Positions 1 to 19,910 of a stretch of 25,023 nucleotides of DNA are shown here, piece by piece. A program made the position numbers and the translations under genes. Under the pieces are notes generated by a model that saw only the letters and a program-made list of their open reading frames with translations, had not been told where the DNA came from and ran no database searches. How positions within the stretch are numbered: position 1 is the first letter of the stretch; each line of letters opens with the position of its first letter. Source of the DNA: an uncultured Mycoplasmatota bacterium (GTDB lineage Bacteria; Bacillota_I; Bacilli_A; RF39; UBA660); the NCBI GenBank assembly GCA_946528555.1, contig CAMMYS010000019.1:1-25023 (forward strand). Reading direction: 5' to 3'.

Positions 1-1135
1 TTATTGTTATTCTTCCTACTTCTGTATATTTTGCTGCATTTGTTACTACATTTAATAATGCTTGATATAATTTTGATGAATCTCCATGTAGCACTGATGA
101 TGTACTTTGATCTATATTTATTAATAACTTAACTGGCTTAGATCCTACTTTTTGTTTTGCTACATTTATTACATTTGAGATTATATCATTTACATTATAA
201 TCTATTTCTGATAATGTTTCTTTTCCAGTTTCAATTTTTGATATATCTAAGATATTATTTATTATATCTAATAAGTTATTTCCTGCATCTACTACTTGTT
301 TTATACAATTTTTTGCCTCAGCTACATCATATGATGGCATATTATTTAATTCATCACATAAACTTATTATTAAGTTCATTGGCATTTTTATTTCATATGA
401 CATATTTGATAAGAAATCTGTTTTCGCTTGATTTGATTTCTCTATATCTTCTTGTGAATTACTAATTTCCTCTAAAATTGAAATATCTGGGTTTTCAATA
501 ATAAAGTAAATCATATATATAATTGAACTACCCATAAATGGTATAAATGATACATTTTTATAATAAATTTGAAGTCCAAATCCTGCTATACTAAATAATA
601 TTAATAATATAATTAATCTTTTAAATTTCTTATCATTTTTCTTAATAGCATAAAATAAAATATTAACATCTAATAATAAATAATAAGGAGTAGCTACAAT
701 CATTAATCCTGTTGGAAAAAATTGTAAGTTATTAGCATCAATTGTGTCATATGGCATAAATAATGAGAATAATACCATAACAAAAATTACTACTGTATAA
801 ACAATTTCTGTTTTAGAGTACTTTAAAACATCTATAATAGATTCTTCTTTTAAGTCTTTATACTTACTAAATGCATATTTATATAAAGTACCACACCACA
901 ATAAGCCAATACCACAGTGTAATCTAAAAAATATTAATGTTAATATATCTAAATCTGTATATTTAGATATAACAACTGATAATATTTCAGTGACTATAAA
1001 TGCTAGGCATAAAATTAATAAAGCTCTAAAATATCTACTACTTGTTGTTTTTAATAATTCTTTTGAATAAAAAGTCATCATTAGAATTATTAAAAAGCAT
1101 AATGAAGTGACAGATAAGAAAAAACTGAATGCCAT
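1..1135 (-). CDS. Membrane sensor histidine kinase, C-terminus beyond window, phospho-accepting His replaced by Tyr
   Basis: Partial gene: 378 residues are visible from an ATG at 1135 (SD AAAGGAG about 7 bases upstream), and the frame is still open at base 1. Residues 1 to about 215 form a series of hydrophobic segments, a multi-pass membrane sensor. A HisKA-like dimerisation segment follows, then the start of a HATPase domain with an N-box (NVVTNAAKYT). The H-box reads SYEIKMPMN where the neighbouring kinase has SHEIRTPMN, so the phospho-accepting His is Tyr247 (codon 395-397). It begins 14 bases after the stop of the next kinase and is probably cotranscribed with it. The family is clear. 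Known HisKA kinases need this His for autophosphorylation, so I infer a pseudokinase or an allosteric partner. Any receiver domain lies outside the window. Confidence 0.88.
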   Translation of the reverse strand, partial: MAFSFFLSVTSLCFLIILMMTFYSKELLKTTSSRYFRALLILCLAFIVTEILSVVISKYTDLDILTLIFFRLHCGIGLLWCGTLYKYAFSKYKDLKEESIIDVLKYSKTEIVYTVVIFVMVLFSLFMPYDTIDANNLQFFPTGLMIVATPYYLLLDVNILFYAIKKNDKKFKRLIILLILFSIAGFGLQIYYKNVSFIPFMGSSIIYMIYFIIENPDISILEEISNSQEDIEKSNQAKTDFLSNMSYEIKMPMNLIISLCDELNNMPSYDVAEAKNCIKQVVDAGNNLLDIINNILDISKIETGKETLSEIDYNVNDIISNVINVAKQKVGSKPVKLLINIDQSTSSVLHGDSSKLYQALLNVVTNAAKYTEVGRITI

Positions 1136-1149
1136 AACTATACTCCTTT

Positions 1150-3057
1150 CTAATCAATGCTTGATCTATTTTCCATAACCCTTGTTACTGTTTTATTTAG
1201 TTCTCTAAAATTAATTGGTTTTGATATATAATCTGCAAAACCTTCAGATATAAATCTATCTCTAATGCCATCATAAGAATTAGCTGTTAATGCTACTATT
1301 GGAGGTAATGGTTTACCTAAAGAAATTAATTCTTTTAGTGTGGCTACACCATCCATTTCAGGCATCATATGATCTAATAAAATAATGTCATAGTTATTAT
1401 TTTTAACTAAATCAATGCACTCTTTTCCACTCTTAGCAGTACTTATGTTAAATTTAAATTGAGTTAAATATCTACTAGCTAATTTAATATTAACATCAGC
1501 ATCATCTACTATTAATGCAGTTAAACCACTATAATCAGATATTTCTTTAGAACTACTTACTTTTCCTTCACCAAACACATTACCAACAGGTTCACTATTT
1601 TTAATCTTTTGACGTATTTTAATTATATATTTAGTTCCTTGACCTTTTTCATTTATAAATTCCATTTGTCCATACATTAACTTAGTTAATTGTTTTGCAA
1701 TAATTACACCTAATTTAATATTATCTACATTATTTGATTGAGAATTCTCTATATCAACAAAATCGCTAAATTCTCTATTAAATATATCATATGACATTGC
1801 ATGTCCTGTATTTGATACTGTGAAATTAAATTCAAATATTCCATCTTTTACAGTTTTACCATCAACATTTAATTTAACTTCTCCATAATTTGTATATTCA
1901 ATAGCATTTAATAAAATATATGTAACTATCTTAAATATTTTATGAGCATCACCATTATACTCTTTTGGTATATTTTCATTTATTTCTATACTAAATTTTA
2001 ATTCATCTTTTGTTATTTTAGATGGAATTAAACTATTAATTTCAAATATTAAATTTTCTAATAAATAATCTTTATATATAACTACTTCTTTATCACTTTC
2101 TAAACTAGAAATATCAAGTATATTATTAATCAAATCCATAAGTGTATTACTAGCACTTGTAATACTACCCAAATCTCTTTTAAGAACTTCTTCATTTAAG
2201 TTTTCATCTTTTAATAATGATTCACTAAAACCAACTATTGTATTCATAGGAGTTCTTATTTCATGTGACATATTAATTAAGAATTCTGTTTTTGCTTTAT
2301 TAGCACTTTCTGCTTCCTTTTTAGATTTCATATATGAATATAGTAATTTATTATCCTGACTTTCAACAGTAAAATATAAAATAGTAATAATAAGTGCATG
2401 GAATGTACCATTAATATTAATATAATAATTTGAAGTTATTTGAATAATTAATACAATCATATAGAAAATGAATGCAACATATATTGGTAGCATATATATA
2501 TTTCTAACTCTTTCATCATTTGTCGCTAATAAATAAAGAGTAACAAAGCTTCCAAATACTATAAATCCATAATAAGCAAACATAGGAAAACCTGTTATAC
2601 CATAAGGCATACCATTAATACCACCTATATATTCAAATTCACAAAAGAATACAATTGCTATTGGAAATATAATACTAAATAATACTAAACCATATAAAAT
2701 GATTTTATCTTTTTGAAATTTTTTGAATAAATCAAAACCATAAATAGTATAAATAATATATATTAAGAAGGTTGATCCCCATACAAATGCAACAAGTAAA
2801 TATAATTTATTAGCAATAGTATTAATAACACCAAATTTTTCATAATTCATTATTGTATAAGGGCATATAAGTTCAAATATTAAAACGACTATTCCAATCC
2901 ACAATAAAACATCAAATATTCTACTTCCAATATTTGATTCTCTTTTTTTAGTCATATATGTAAAAAATAACATTATTAAAAAGAATAGTGAAACTAAAGA
3001 AGTACAAACACTATTATAATAAGCTGATGTACTTTCTGCTATTACAGAACTAAACAT
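1150..3057 (-). CDS. Hybrid membrane histidine kinase with receiver domain and degenerate ATP site
   Basis: 635 residues from the ATG at 3057, chosen because GGAAGGTG lies at SD distance; the frame is open 17 codons further upstream but without an SD. Residues 1-230 contain about seven hydrophobic segments (membrane sensor). HisKA follows with SHEIRTPMN (His265), then a HATPase domain at about 350-485 and a receiver domain at about 513-630. The receiver looks functional: acidic pair DD, phospho-acceptor Asp562 (LLDHMMPEMDG), the Thr of ALTA and the Lys of SKP. The ATP-binding boxes are eroded. The N-box keeps one Asn (LLNAIEYT), the usual DxGxG is NTGHA with the Asp lost, and the GLGL lid motif is KLGV. 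It precedes the Tyr247 kinase by 14 bases. The pair probably signals together; the ligand and output are unknown. Confidence 0.9.
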   Translation of the reverse strand: MFSSVIAESTSAYYNSVCTSLVSLFFLIMLFFTYMTKKRESNIGSRIFDVLLWIGIVVLIFELICPYTIMNYEKFGVINTIANKLYLLVAFVWGSTFLIYIIYTIYGFDLFKKFQKDKIILYGLVLFSIIFPIAIVFFCEFEYIGGINGMPYGITGFPMFAYYGFIVFGSFVTLYLLATNDERVRNIYMLPIYVAFIFYMIVLIIQITSNYYININGTFHALIITILYFTVESQDNKLLYSYMKSKKEAESANKAKTEFLINMSHEIRTPMNTIVGFSESLLKDENLNEEVLKRDLGSITSASNTLMDLINNILDISSLESDKEVVIYKDYLLENLIFEINSLIPSKITKDELKFSIEINENIPKEYNGDAHKIFKIVTYILLNAIEYTNYGEVKLNVDGKTVKDGIFEFNFTVSNTGHAMSYDIFNREFSDFVDIENSQSNNVDNIKLGVIIAKQLTKLMYGQMEFINEKGQGTKYIIKIRQKIKNSEPVGNVFGEGKVSSSKEISDYSGLTALIVDDADVNIKLASRYLTQFKFNISTAKSGKECIDLVKNNNYDIILLDHMMPEMDGVATLKELISLGKPLPPIVALTANSYDGIRDRFISEGFADYISKPINFRELNKTVTRVMENRSSID

Positions 3058-3110
3058 AGTATCACACCTTCCAACCCTATTATATATTAAGTATACTATT
3101 TTTAGCATAT

Positions 3111-7062: not shown

Positions 7063-8901
7063 TTATAAACCATAACTATTTGAGCAACTATTACTTTGCC
7101 AAATACTTTCGATTGATTGTTGTTTGCTTGAGTCAAATTTTGCTTCATCGCCATATTGAGCAGTTTTATCACAACCAGGAGTTATTTTACATGCAGCACT
7201 TTCAACCGCTTTTGTAACATGCTCATCACTCCAACACTTTTCTGCCTCTTCTTTAACAGCAGCTTTTACTTTTTCTATTATAGTTTTTAAATCACTACAT
7301 TTTGCTGCACATTTTGGGCTAAGTTCTGAATTATTATTTATTGCAGCAGTTGCACAACTTTCGCCAACAGTAGTTAAAGAATTTCTAAATTTTTTATATG
7401 CAGTTGTTCCTTCTGTATCAACTGTTTCTACATCATAAGTACAATTTGGTTTATCATTTTGACTTGTTTGTTCTTCTACTGCTTTTGGTGAAACTGTAAC
7501 TGTACAAGTTGCTTCTTTTCCATTTGATGTTTTAGCAGTAATAGTTGTTGTGCCTTCTGCTTTATATGTTACTTTTCCATCTTTAACAGTAGCAACATCT
7601 TTATTTGATGTTTCCCAAGTTACTTTTTTATCAGTAGCATTTTTTGGAAGAACTGTTGCTGTTAATGTAACTGCTTTATCTCCTACTGTAGCTTTTAATT
7701 CAGTTTTATTTAAAGATATACTTTCAACTTCTACTGTTGTTACTTCTGCTGTTTCATTTTTTTCTGGTTCAACAGTTGTTGTATTATCATCTTCTACTGG
7801 AGCAGCATCACAAGAAATACTTTTTACTGATTCCATTTCATTAACATGATTTATATTTTTATCTTCAGTTTCTTCAAATTCAACTGCATCAGCATCTTTT
7901 AAAGTACCATTACTACCTGTAGCAATTTGAGTAGTGCTTGTTCCATCTAATGTAGTACATACGCCATCTACAAATTCATGTTTTGGAGTAAATGTATAAG
8001 TATCTCCATCAATTTCATAAGTACCTTCTTCTATAGTATATGTACTTCCATCTGCTTTATATCTTGTATATGTTTTATCTTCATTTAATATATATTCTAT
8101 ATCATAATCTTCGGATACTGCTTTCAAATATTTTGTTTGTGATTTAACTGTTGTATTTGTATTATCAACAGGTTTTGGTGCTGGTTCATCTTTTCCTTTA
8201 ATTAAGAAAAAGTAAACTGCTGCAGCAATTGCAATTAGCAATACAACTACAATAATAATTAAACCAGTCTTTCCACCTTTCTTTTCCTCTCCTGCTGGAG
8301 TTTCAGAACTTACTTCAGTTGAAGTTTCAGTAGGTGTTGCTGGAGTCTCACCTTCAGTTGTACCTGTTATTTGAACTTCAGGTTCAGGCATTTCAGTTAC
8401 AGCTGGAACTGGATCAACTACTGGTAGTGGTTGTTCTGCAGGTGCTTCTACAGTTGGTGCTTCCATAGCTGGCATTTCAGCTGGTGCTTCTGCTATTGGT
8501 TCTGCAGGTGCTGCTGCCTCAACAGGTGCAACTTCTGCTACTGGAGTTTCTTCAACAACTGGTGCTGCTGCTGGTTGTTCTTCAACAGCAGGAACTGCTT
8601 CTACTGGAGCAACCTCTGCCGGAGCTTCTACTACAGGTTCTACAGGTGCTGCTTCCACTGGAGCAACTTCTTCTGTAGTTGGAGTTTCCATAGCTGGCAT
8701 TTCAGCTGGAGCTTCTACTACAGGCTCTGCAGGTAAAGGTTCAGCAACTGGCTGTTCTTCAACAGCAGGAACTGCTTCTACTGGAGCTTCTGCCACTACT
8801 TCTGGTGTTGCTTCAACTACTGGTTCTGCTACTGGAGTATCCATTACAGGAGCTTCTTCAGGTTGAACAACATTATTTAAATCTTGATTATTTTCTTCCA
8901 T
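7063..8901 (-). CDS. Single-pass surface protein with Pro/Ala/Glu/Val-rich arm and Big2 domain
   Basis: 612 residues, product not recognised beyond its domains. Residues 13-205 are a low-complexity Ala/Pro/Glu/Val tract with repeated units (AVPAVEEQP, APAEMPAME). KKGGK precedes one strong membrane helix (about 213-234, GLIIIVVVLLIAIAAAVYFF). The rest should be outside: a Thr-rich stretch with a strand-rich module at about 258-310, a bacterial Ig-like Big2 domain at about 391-470 (VESISLNKTELKATVGDK ... ATCTVTV), and a Cys-rich tail. All 11 cysteines lie after residue 310, which suggests disulphides and supports an N-in, C-out topology. There is no signal peptide. Start: ATG at 8901 with GAGGG upstream. 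It is transcribed alone, between two terminators, from its own promoter. A cell-surface adhesion or wall role is inferred only. Confidence 0.85.
   Translation of the reverse strand: MEENNQDLNNVVQPEEAPVMDTPVAEPVVEATPEVVAEAPVEAVPAVEEQPVAEPLPAEPVVEAPAEMPAMETPTTEEVAPVEAAPVEPVVEAPAEVAPVEAVPAVEEQPAAAPVVEETPVAEVAPVEAAAPAEPIAEAPAEMPAMEAPTVEAPAEQPLPVVDPVPAVTEMPEPEVQITGTTEGETPATPTETSTEVSSETPAGEEKKGGKTGLIIIVVVLLIAIAAAVYFFLIKGKDEPAPKPVDNTNTTVKSQTKYLKAVSEDYDIEYILNEDKTYTRYKADGSTYTIEEGTYEIDGDTYTFTPKHEFVDGVCTTLDGTSTTQIATGSNGTLKDADAVEFEETEDKNINHVNEMESVKSISCDAAPVEDDNTTTVEPEKNETAEVTTVEVESISLNKTELKATVGDKAVTLTATVLPKNATDKKVTWETSNKDVATVKDGKVTYKAEGTTTITAKTSNGKEATCTVTVSPKAVEEQTSQNDKPNCTYDVETVDTEGTTAYKKFRNSLTTVGESCATAAINNNSELSPKCAAKCSDLKTIIEKVKAAVKEEAEKCWSDEHVTKAVESAACKITPGCDKTAQYGDEAKFDSSKQQSIESIWQSNSCSNSYGL
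8461..8484. repeat. 24-bp direct repeat, copy 1
   Basis: Exact match to 8686-8709, inside the low-complexity arm of the surface protein. It encodes the PAEMPAME unit. The exact base identity suggests recent internal duplication rather than only codon-level convergence. Confidence 0.85.
8576..8610. repeat. 35-bp direct repeat, copy 1
   Basis: Identical to 8753-8787. It encodes the EAVPAVEEQ unit of the surface-protein arm. Such repeats can recombine and change the arm length. Confidence 0.85.
8686..8709. repeat. 24-bp direct repeat, copy 2
   Basis: Second exact copy of 8461-8484. Confidence 0.85.
8753..8787. repeat. 35-bp direct repeat, copy 2
   Basis: Second exact copy of 8576-8610, 177 bases away, a multiple of three, so recombination between them would keep the frame. 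Confidence 0.85.
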
Positions 8902-17830: not shown

Positions 17831-19378
17831 TTAATTAGCTTCCCATACTGCAAATAATTCAACAGTAGCACCTTTTGTATAAGATAAGTTTTTAACTTGT
17901 GCTTCGTCATTATATTTTACAGTATTTGATATATTATCAGTAGCCCAACCTTTAAATGTATATCCTTCTCTTGTATAAGTGTTTTTACGAAGTTTTGCTT
18001 CTTCATCTAATCTTAATGTTGTACTAATCATAGTTCCATCAGTAGCGCCATTTCCTCTATATTCAATTGTATATGTAATAGATGCACTTTCAAGAACATA
18101 TGGGTCATCGCTAGTTCCTTTTCCGCCTGTTACAAGTGTATTTCCATCTATTGATAATACTGGATAATATCTTGCACTTGCAGAAGTAACAGATGCACTT
18201 GATATTGAACCGCTTGAACTAACTGTAACTTCAAAAGCTCCACCACTATATTGAGCAGGGCTCATTGTCCAATAATTTTGACCAGTATTTAAATAATAAT
18301 CATTATTATTTTTAGCAAAGCCTCCACCAGCATATAAAACATCATCTACCGTAACTAATCCTACAGGATATTCAAGTGAGTTATATGCTTCATTATATCC
18401 ACCTTTAAATTTTGATAAAGATAATCTATCTTGATCTTGAGCACATCTAAATGGATTTGCAGAATAATTAACTGTACTAACATTATAATTTGTAGCTGCT
18501 GATCCTACACCAGAACCTGATGCTGGAACTCTATTAATACAGAAACTAGAATCAGTAACCATACTAGATAATAAACCACTATTCTTTTCATACCAAGCAT
18601 CCAATAATTTTTTAGCATTACTTTGATTTTCAAAATATTCAACTTTATTATCAACTACATAGAAAAATCTATATCCACTCTCATTTGAAGTTGATTTTGT
18701 TAAATCATATTCATAAAAATTATGTGTATCTTCATAGTCAGTATGTCTATTAGCAGCAACATCAATTCTATTTGCAAATACTTTATCATTTACTGATGTA
18801 CTAGATAAATCATGTAATTGACTTTGAGCTTTACCAAACATATATCCTACAAAAGCATTATCATCTCCTAAAAGATTGAATTTTTTATTAACTAAATCAG
18901 AGTCACCAGTACCATTATATGCAATACTATTGCATCCAGATGCATCTCTTCCCAGATACATCATTCTAACATTTCCGTCTTCGTTAGTTCTAATAATTCT
19001 AAAACACATATTGTCTATTTTAGCAAAATTATTTTCTACATGTCCTCTAAAGAAATATATTCTACTAACTTTACCATCTGCATTTTCATCTACACTATTT
19101 AAAAAGTATAATCCATTTCCATTACCAGTTGCTTTATTAGCAACATTTCCTATAACAAATATACTTCCATCTGTAACAAAGTTATCTTCTAATATTCTTT
19201 TAGTAATACTTGAACTTTTTGATTTTAAACTATCTAGGTCTTCATTAACTTTATTATTTACAAATTCTACATAGTTACTTTTTTCTGTTTGTGATGCCAT
19301 TATAGCAGCCATTACAAACAAGAATATTGTTAAGAAACTATATACAAGTGTCATTGATACAAAACCCTTTTTCTTCAT
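17831..19378 (-). CDS. Prepilin-like surface protein with C-terminal InlB/Flg_new repeat, Glu5 missing
   Basis: 515 residues. The N-terminus MKKKG followed by FVSMTLVYSFLTIFLFVMAA has the short basic leader, Gly and hydrophobic helix of a type IV prepilin, but position +5 after Gly5 is Thr, not the usual Glu. A long extracellular part follows with several Cys and motifs frequent in surface proteins of uncultured Firmicutes (YWTMSPAQYSGG, ARYYPVLSI, GTSDDPYVLE). The last 80 residues are one Listeria-Bacteroides (InlB B / Flg_new) repeat: IEYRGNGATDGT ... TREGYTFKGWATD ... VELFAVWEAN. SD AAGGAG precedes the ATG. It begins 10 bases after the first pilin-like gene. It could be a minor pilin or tip adhesin. 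No prepilin peptidase is in the window. Confidence 0.83.
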   Translation of the reverse strand: MKKKGFVSMTLVYSFLTIFLFVMAAIMASQTEKSNYVEFVNNKVNEDLDSLKSKSSSITKRILEDNFVTDGSIFVIGNVANKATGNGNGLYFLNSVDENADGKVSRIYFFRGHVENNFAKIDNMCFRIIRTNEDGNVRMMYLGRDASGCNSIAYNGTGDSDLVNKKFNLLGDDNAFVGYMFGKAQSQLHDLSSTSVNDKVFANRIDVAANRHTDYEDTHNFYEYDLTKSTSNESGYRFFYVVDNKVEYFENQSNAKKLLDAWYEKNSGLLSSMVTDSSFCINRVPASGSGVGSAATNYNVSTVNYSANPFRCAQDQDRLSLSKFKGGYNEAYNSLEYPVGLVTVDDVLYAGGGFAKNNNDYYLNTGQNYWTMSPAQYSGGAFEVTVSSSGSISSASVTSASARYYPVLSIDGNTLVTGGKGTSDDPYVLESASITYTIEYRGNGATDGTMISTTLRLDEEAKLRKNTYTREGYTFKGWATDNISNTVKYNDEAQVKNLSYTKGATVELFAVWEAN

Positions 19379-19388
19379 AATATTCTCC

Positions 19389-19910
19389 TTATAAATTTAT
19401 AGAAGCATAATAAAATTTATCACTTCTTTTAAATACACCTATTAAGTAATTTGTTTTATTAATATCTAATGTTTTCATATATTCAATTGTACCATTATCA
19501 TATTTAGTTGTTGGATTTGATGAAGCTTGTAATTTAGTTGCTAGTCCATCACCATCAATATAATATAAATATACCAATCCAGTATCATTAAACATATTAT
19601 TTATTTCATACACTTGGTTACCATGTTCATCAGTATAATTATCATAAAATCTATTACTAATACATGAATTATACGCAGTATCAATATTTATACTAAAATC
19701 GCCACAAGAAGTAAAATTATTATTTCCTGTAGTTCCCAATGAACTAATAGCATACAATAAATATTTGTCAGAAGTATTATCATAATGCTCTTTTCTTCTA
19801 GAATTATTTGAAAGAACTGTATAAGTAATTAAAAAACCAGTTAATGCAAGAGCAACAACTACTAAAACAATAACACTTTCTAAAAATACAAAACCATTCT
19901 TCTTTTTCAT
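19389..19910 (-). CDS. Type IV prepilin-like protein
   Basis: 173 residues. MKKKNG followed by FVFLESVIVLVVVALALTGF is a classical prepilin N-terminus: short Lys-rich leader, cleavage after Gly6, Phe at +1 and Glu at +5, then a hydrophobic helix that would form the filament core. The remaining 130 residues are a small extracellular domain rich in Asn, Asp and Tyr with two Cys (SCGDFS and NSCISN) that could pair. SD AGGTGG is 4 bases before the ATG. It is the first of two genes; the 515-residue partner follows after 10 bases. The product may form a filament, or be a pseudopilin of a secretion/competence-like apparatus; assembly genes are elsewhere. Confidence 0.85.
   Translation of the reverse strand: MKKKNGFVFLESVIVLVVVALALTGFLITYTVLSNNSRRKEHYDNTSDKYLLYAISSLGTTGNNNFTSCGDFSINIDTAYNSCISNRFYDNYTDEHGNQVYEINNMFNDTGLVYLYYIDGDGLATKLQASSNPTTKYDNGTIEYMKTLDINKTNYLIGVFKRSDKFYYASINL

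Follow-up and report, generated by a model that had tools for sequence, protein, structure and literature searches.

DivL of Caulobacter is a histidine kinase of the HisKA family in which a tyrosine replaces the phospho-accepting histidine, and it was reportedly first named a tyrosine kinase. Mutants of CheA that lack the histidine (His-dead) and mutants that lack ATP binding (ATP-dead) are said to complement each other in the laboratory. Escherichia coli BarA is described in PMC4734776 as a kinase that works in trans and whose ATP-dead and His-dead mutants complement each other. CheA3/CheA4, the split chemotaxis kinase of Rhodobacter sphaeroides, is the biochemically characterised case named in PMC3591291, which models the circuits of split kinases as switches and argues that a free half with phosphatase activity makes such a kinase switch-like. 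Here we report on two adjoining genes, A and B, at the left end of the window, by which we mean the whole 25,023-nucleotide stretch of DNA analysed (contig CAMMYS010000019.1 from an uncultured Mycoplasmatota bacterium). A has lost the phospho-accepting histidine and B its ATP-binding motifs, and we consider it probable that the two proteins together make up one histidine kinase that has been split in nature: the ATP domain of A would phosphorylate the histidine of B within a mixed dimer.

The H-box region of A, read on the minus strand, is TDFLSNMSYEIKMPMNLIIS, with tyrosine at residue 247 of the frame 2-1135 in place of the histidine. The initial annotation had noted this replacement in an otherwise intact, in-frame gene, and both points hold: the frame is open, the HisKA domain still matches Pfam with an E-value of 2.5e-9, and P0021, which is encoded on a different contig (1,446 bases) and is identical to A at 170 of 171 positions over residues 208-378, carries the same tyrosine. 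The G1 and G2 boxes of A itself lie beyond the window edge and are read here via P0021 and relatives. In P0021 the missing end of A contains DTGIGI and GSGLGL in an intact HATPase domain, followed by a receiver with its phospho-accepting aspartate in DHMMPEMDG, which answers the question raised in the initial annotation whether a receiver remains past the left edge. Full-length relatives of A are P0001 (613 aa, 87% identical) and L001:8001-9839 (76%). The stop codon of B and the ATG of A are separated by 14 bases, and translation of B likely starts at 3057, which gives a protein of 635 aa, as in P0121. B has the histidine that A lacks, but it has lost the G1 aspartate and the G2 glycines that P0021 and the relatives of A have kept, and is therefore not the canonical homologue that it had been taken for. 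Judged by these residues, A should be unable to autophosphorylate at the usual site, which agrees with the initial annotation.

AlphaFold2 and Pfam predict the same layout for both proteins, with seven transmembrane helices followed by DHp hairpin, ATPase domain and receiver (Table 1). The models used were P0121 for B (mean predicted local distance difference test score, pLDDT, 80.5) and the relative P0001 for A (81.9); since their predicted template modelling scores (pTM) were 0.49 and 0.46, respectively, the placement of domains was not used. The Pfam scores for the ATPase domain (PF02518) are 41 bits for B, 84 for P0001 and 89 for P0021. As each exceeds the Pfam cut-off (26.4), routine annotation calls both proteins normal kinases, and only a residue-level view of both partners exposes their incompleteness.

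Table 1. Features of genes A and B in the window (positions are those of the whole stretch).
Feature	Coordinates	Strand	Details
Gene A, first 378 codons of a seven-transmembrane (7TM)-HisKA-HATPase-REC hybrid kinase	2..1135	minus	cut by the window's left edge
A, seven predicted transmembrane helices (residues 1-214)	494..1135	minus	AlphaFold2 model of P0001; Pfam lists no family here
A, HisKA (DHp) domain without phospho-accepting His	224..427	minus	Pfam PF00512, residues 237-304
A, Tyr247 codon at the phospho-accepting His position	395..397	minus	TAT (ATA on the forward strand)
A, start of HATPase domain, N-box intact (LLNVVTNAAKYT)	2..85	minus	weak partial match, E 0.037; domain cut by the edge
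Gene B, 652-codon frame, directly upstream of A in transcription	1150..3108	minus	
B, HisKA domain, H-box MSHEIRTPMN intact	2095..2295	minus	Pfam PF00512, residues 272-338
B, phospho-accepting His codon	2263..2265	minus	CAT
B, HATPase domain, recognised by Pfam but catalytic motifs lost	1609..1953	minus	Pfam PF02518, residues 386-500
B, broken G1 box NTGHAM	1795..1812	minus	canonical DTGxGI
B, broken G2 box NVDNIKLGVIIAK	1693..1731	minus	canonical GxGLGL; glycine pattern gone
B, receiver domain, phospho-Asp at 1372-1374	1186..1515	minus	Pfam PF00072; DD, D, T and K columns present

The initial annotation had proposed looking in related genomes for the tyrosine and for the same tandem pair, and both were found. 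All homologue counts given here describe nearest relatives, namely the best 120 of 1564 matches for A, of 3333 for B and of 2608 for P0086. Among the 120 listed homologues of A, 42 have the histidine and 78 do not; in the latter, which range from 87% down to about 39% identity to A, the position is filled by tyrosine in 64 and by threonine, serine, valine, phenylalanine or asparagine in the other 14. All six scored G1/G2 residues are kept in 77 of these 78, the exception being P0113, which has lost a G2 glycine. From these sequences, Tyr247 is a conserved state and not a chance mutation, and the strong conservation of the ATP site argues that this site matters in A. The listed homologues of B present the complementary picture: the G1 aspartate is lost in 119 of 120, and 118 of these 119 keep the histidine. 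P0191, a B-type protein whose partner was not seen, has arginine for the histidine as well as a dead ATP site. The one listed B homologue with both histidine and intact ATP site, P0201 (920 aa, on a 2938-base contig), is a chimera in which a B-type sensor and H-box are fused to a complete ATPase core, a receiver and a long acidic linker; its C-terminal end looks Hpt-like by eye, and it may be a natural re-fusion or an assembly artefact. A search from P0086 added 88 proteins, of which 86 have histidine and an intact site, P0241 has glutamine and an intact site, and P0318 has asparagine and a damaged G2 box. The residue table of 246 rows for the homologues of A and B, which does not count these 88, holds 78 His-less proteins with all six G1/G2 residues, one that is His-less and damaged (P0113), 121 that are His-bearing and ATP-dead, 43 that are intact in both respects, one with arginine and a dead ATP site (P0191) and two that are cut off.

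These counts bear on two other explanations of A. The predominance of tyrosine at the histidine position, together with the first name given to DivL, could suggest that A is a tyrosine kinase acting on its own Tyr247; we reject this and assign it next to no probability because 14 of the listed His-less relatives have another residue there (valine in three linked genomes), and valine and phenylalanine cannot be phosphorylated. Loss of a catalytic histidine could also mark a decaying pseudogene or a decoy, a role raised in the initial annotation, that would block B. This we hold to be very improbable: the frames are open, the ATP residues are intact in 79 His-less rows, the receiver residues are kept bar one gap, and this upkeep extends over the deep divergence described above. 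As B is, by sequence, not an active kinase, a decoy would have nothing to block, and an ATP site kept in the relatives of A beside one lost in B points to divided catalysis rather than interference. Sequencing error, like decay of A into a pseudogene, is rejected in view of P0021, the open frame and the conserved His-less relatives. The link to the neighbour as a partner, proposed along with the decoy role, fared better, as follows from the arrangement of the genes.

At the tabulated loci the B and A genes adjoin on one strand with B first. In the 30 pairs tabulated, the first gene keeps the histidine in all 30 and is ATP-dead in 27, and wherever the second gene behind an ATP-dead first gene could be read (25 pairs, two being cut) its ATP site is intact. 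Both genes are intact in three pairs (G016, G033 and G248), 16 combine an ATP-dead first gene with a complete second gene, and 11, the window included, combine an ATP-dead first gene with a His-less second gene (Tyr in seven, Val in three, Ser in one). In none of the 30 does a His-less second gene follow an ATP-competent first gene. By sequence, then, the acceptor lies on one protein and the ATP function on the other in 11 of the 30 linked pairs; two of these 11 second genes, in the window and in L066 (its second pair), break off ahead of the G1 box. The 30 do not count G774, in which an ATP-dead first gene is followed by a His-bearing, ATP-intact second gene that was partly fetched; G772 and G778, in which the first gene lies at a contig end with no adjoining partner; two adjoining complete kinases of a distant lineage (G001:C7); or weak matches to the B profile in G628 and G634. 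Linkage is also apparent from contig sizes, 20 of which are common to the 78 His-less A and the 120 B proteins listed, versus a mean of 0.35 at shifted sizes; at least two of the 20, 13559 and 9912, belong to genomes that were fetched. The first genes of L062, L063, L064 and L065 have serine for the G1 aspartate and no NTGHAM, possibly through an independent loss of the ATP site.

The pairing also bears on two further explanations. In one, A would be a DivL-like pseudokinase without catalytic activity that tunes another kinase, either as its allosteric partner or by sensing input. The tyrosine in place of the H-box histidine, in A as in 64 of the 78 listed His-less homologues, is the DivL-type substitution, but we regard this explanation as unlikely: the ATP site is kept in 77 of those 78, whereas the ATPase domain of DivL is reported to be dispensable (PMC9491836). 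Moreover, the tandem partner has no ATP site, so the pair holds no complete kinase to tune. In the other, B would be a phosphotransfer protein in the manner of Spo0B that receives its phosphate from receivers or from other kinases. A would be a separate ATP-binding regulator, with mixed dimers unneeded. That B keeps its histidine and a recognisable ATPase domain and not ATP binding would fit, as would the presence of other complete hybrid kinases in the relative G001 (L005-L007). We nevertheless think it decidedly unlikely, as it leaves unexplained both the ATP site of A, which has no histidine of its own to serve, and why 11 of 11 tabulated His-less A genes directly follow an ATP-dead B.

The order in which the two losses arose can be read from the trees, which were quick searches with support from the Shimodaira-Hasegawa-like approximate likelihood ratio test (SH-aLRT) only, the first tree being midpoint-rooted. 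First and second genes form separate clades with similar branching. Among first genes the ATP-dead ones, which are all but three intact ones and the two distant G001:C7 kinases, group together, and the two distant kinases are placed beside the first-gene clade. Histidine was lost from second genes in at least two events, one giving a large clade and the other P0086, P0241 and P0318, of which two keep the ATP site and whose partners were not seen. Where the relatives of these His-less second genes are linked to a first gene, that first gene is ATP-dead, and since in the tabulated pairs histidine loss is found only behind ATP-dead first genes, the tree pattern suggests that ATP loss in B likely preceded histidine loss in A. 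The likely order is thus from two intact genes to loss of ATP binding in B and then to loss of the histidine in A, at least twice. The mirror-tree correlation (r of 0.82, with none of 2000 permutations as high) shows only co-inheritance, as expected of any linked pair, and is not counted as evidence of contact.

Taken together, an ATP site kept in A without its own histidine and a histidine kept in B without an ATP site are most simply read as A handing phosphate to B within a mixed dimer. The ancestors would have been two complete 7TM hybrid kinases encoded in tandem; B would have lost ATP binding and kept its histidine, and A would later have lost its histidine and kept ATP binding. Neither homodimer would then autophosphorylate, and in the A:B heterodimer the ATPase domain of A would phosphorylate the histidine of B in trans; we infer this in part from the conservation of that histidine long after ATP binding was lost. 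BarA, the kinase complemented in trans, is the top NCBIfam match of both proteins, at 262 and 230 bits, far below the cut-off of 890. Against transfer in trans stands chiefly HK853, the best structural match, which works in cis, together with ArcB. Whether HisKA kinases react in cis or in trans is set by the DHp loop (PMC6798134); aligned to solved chains, the loop of P0001 lacks one residue relative to HK853 and has two more than 7z8n and 6qrj, which does not decide between cis and trans. The structural search for B was dominated by receiver domains.

From the histidine of B the phosphate would pass to one of the two receivers and then probably to a phosphotransfer protein. The five scored receiver residues are kept in 121 of 121 ATP-dead His-bearing and 79 of 79 His-less ATP-intact rows, bar one lysine gap, and in G001's genus each of the 18 genomes has an Hpt match above the cut-off. 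The residue at H+4 is part of the phosphatase motif of HisKA kinases (PMC3591291). It is threonine in 120 of the 121 ATP-dead His-bearing rows versus 15 of the 79 His-less ATP-intact rows, and because it is kept in B and mostly not in A, phosphatase activity probably stays with B. By analogy with the argument made for split kinases, a switch layout with a free-half phosphatase is possible for A and B. Firing of the kinase would then require the presence of both sensors and their association. Whether the pair is, more broadly, an obligate heterodimeric membrane histidine kinase, formed by stepwise complementary inactivation, acting as an AND gate of two 7TM sensors and multiplied within genomes into sets that are perhaps insulated, is in our view evenly balanced. 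Several pairs do occur within one genome: L066 has two consecutive pairs, of which the second is truncated where the contig ends, and G631 has three. Proteins combining a receiver with an HD_5 domain (Pfam) are encoded near pairs in G177 (L071:8759-10384) and G016 (L070:7409-9025), a possible lead to an output of the HD-GYP type in these two genomes. Beside an unpaired complete kinase, L018:700-1494 encodes an Hpt and receiver protein (from a Pfam scan of L018 only), and neighbours of similar size are found in L032, L033, L035, L036, L038 and L039.

In G001's genus a strong match to the A profile is present in 8 of 18 genomes and His-less A genes in 7 of 18, each within a B-A pair; His-less genes weaker than an E-value of 1e-190 to the A profile would escape this screen. 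An ATP-dead first gene is present in 14 of 18 genomes of G177's genus, 12 of them with a complete adjoining partner (that of G774 partly fetched) and two at a contig end. Strong matches are rare in wider draws: two draws from the family gave 5 genomes out of 193 and 7 out of 386, and one from the class gave 3 out of 395. They include intact pairs as well as pairs of an ATP-dead first and a complete second gene, and the true prevalence may be higher, since scoring in the 386-genome family draw and the class draw was confined to the top three candidates of each genome. At the order-wide loci L017-L040 (24 of the 30 loci L011-L040) the matched kinase is complete and no ATP-dead partner was found in flanks of up to 1,500 bases. 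The named sources are an uncultured Tenericutes genome (L001) and 'Bacilli bacterium', the latter given for a small number of proteins, P0041 and P0144 among them. The neighbour genes of the pair differ between genomes: a gene that by its sequence is presumably dnaE-like adjoins it in the window and in L066, one that is presumably ksgA-like lies upstream of it in L055-L059, and in L055 a YabG peptidase (Pfam) lies on its other side. Elsewhere in the window, two adjoining genes at 17831-19910 (minus strand) have short hydrophobic N-termini that by eye resemble pilin or pseudopilin signals, the longer of them with a Listeria-Bacteroides repeat domain (Flg_new), and the gene at 7063-8901 (minus strand) encodes a protein with a Big_2 Ig-like domain that by eye also has a long, repetitive N-terminal part rich in Pro, Ala, Glu and Val and a single hydrophobic stretch.

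If the proposed transfer from A to B is correct, the pair would represent a membrane HisKA split kinase of which every evolutionary stage survives in living relatives, so that each step by which two self-sufficient kinases came to depend on each other would be open to testing. A comparable natural pair was not found in print in the open-licence PMC literature, subscription journals lying largely outside this search. A and DivL share a similar DHp-CA fold (PDB 4q20), but DivL, which reportedly does not need its ATPase domain, tunes the kinase CckA (PMC9491836), whereas A has a conserved ATP site and an ATP-dead tandem partner. RetS of Pseudomonas is among the nearest solved sequences, and RetS-GacS is a heterodimer of two hybrid kinases (PMC12189002), as proposed for A and B; RetS, however, inhibits a kinase that autophosphorylates, and neither A nor B is complete. 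HisKA proteins without a HATPase domain, counted with SMART in PMC3591291, are potential acceptor halves of split kinases, like B, but B keeps its HATPase domain above the Pfam cut-off and is missed by such domain counts. The complementation of His-dead and ATP-dead EnvZ and BarA (PMC4734776) involves the same division of defects, engineered there and evolved and conserved in A and B. Overall, the pair is best classed among the split histidine kinases, with the heterodimer and the transfer in trans as the presumed mode of action. As in CheA3/CheA4, neither of which autophosphorylates alone, acceptor and ATP-dependent kinase roles appear to be shared by two proteins, and the phosphatase activity of the acceptor half of CheA3/CheA4 parallels the role proposed for B. 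CheA3/CheA4 belong to the CheA family and are split by loss of whole domains (PMC3591291); A and B, in contrast, are membrane HisKA hybrids that have kept all their domains and lost complementary motifs, and the intermediate stages of this division persist in their relatives.
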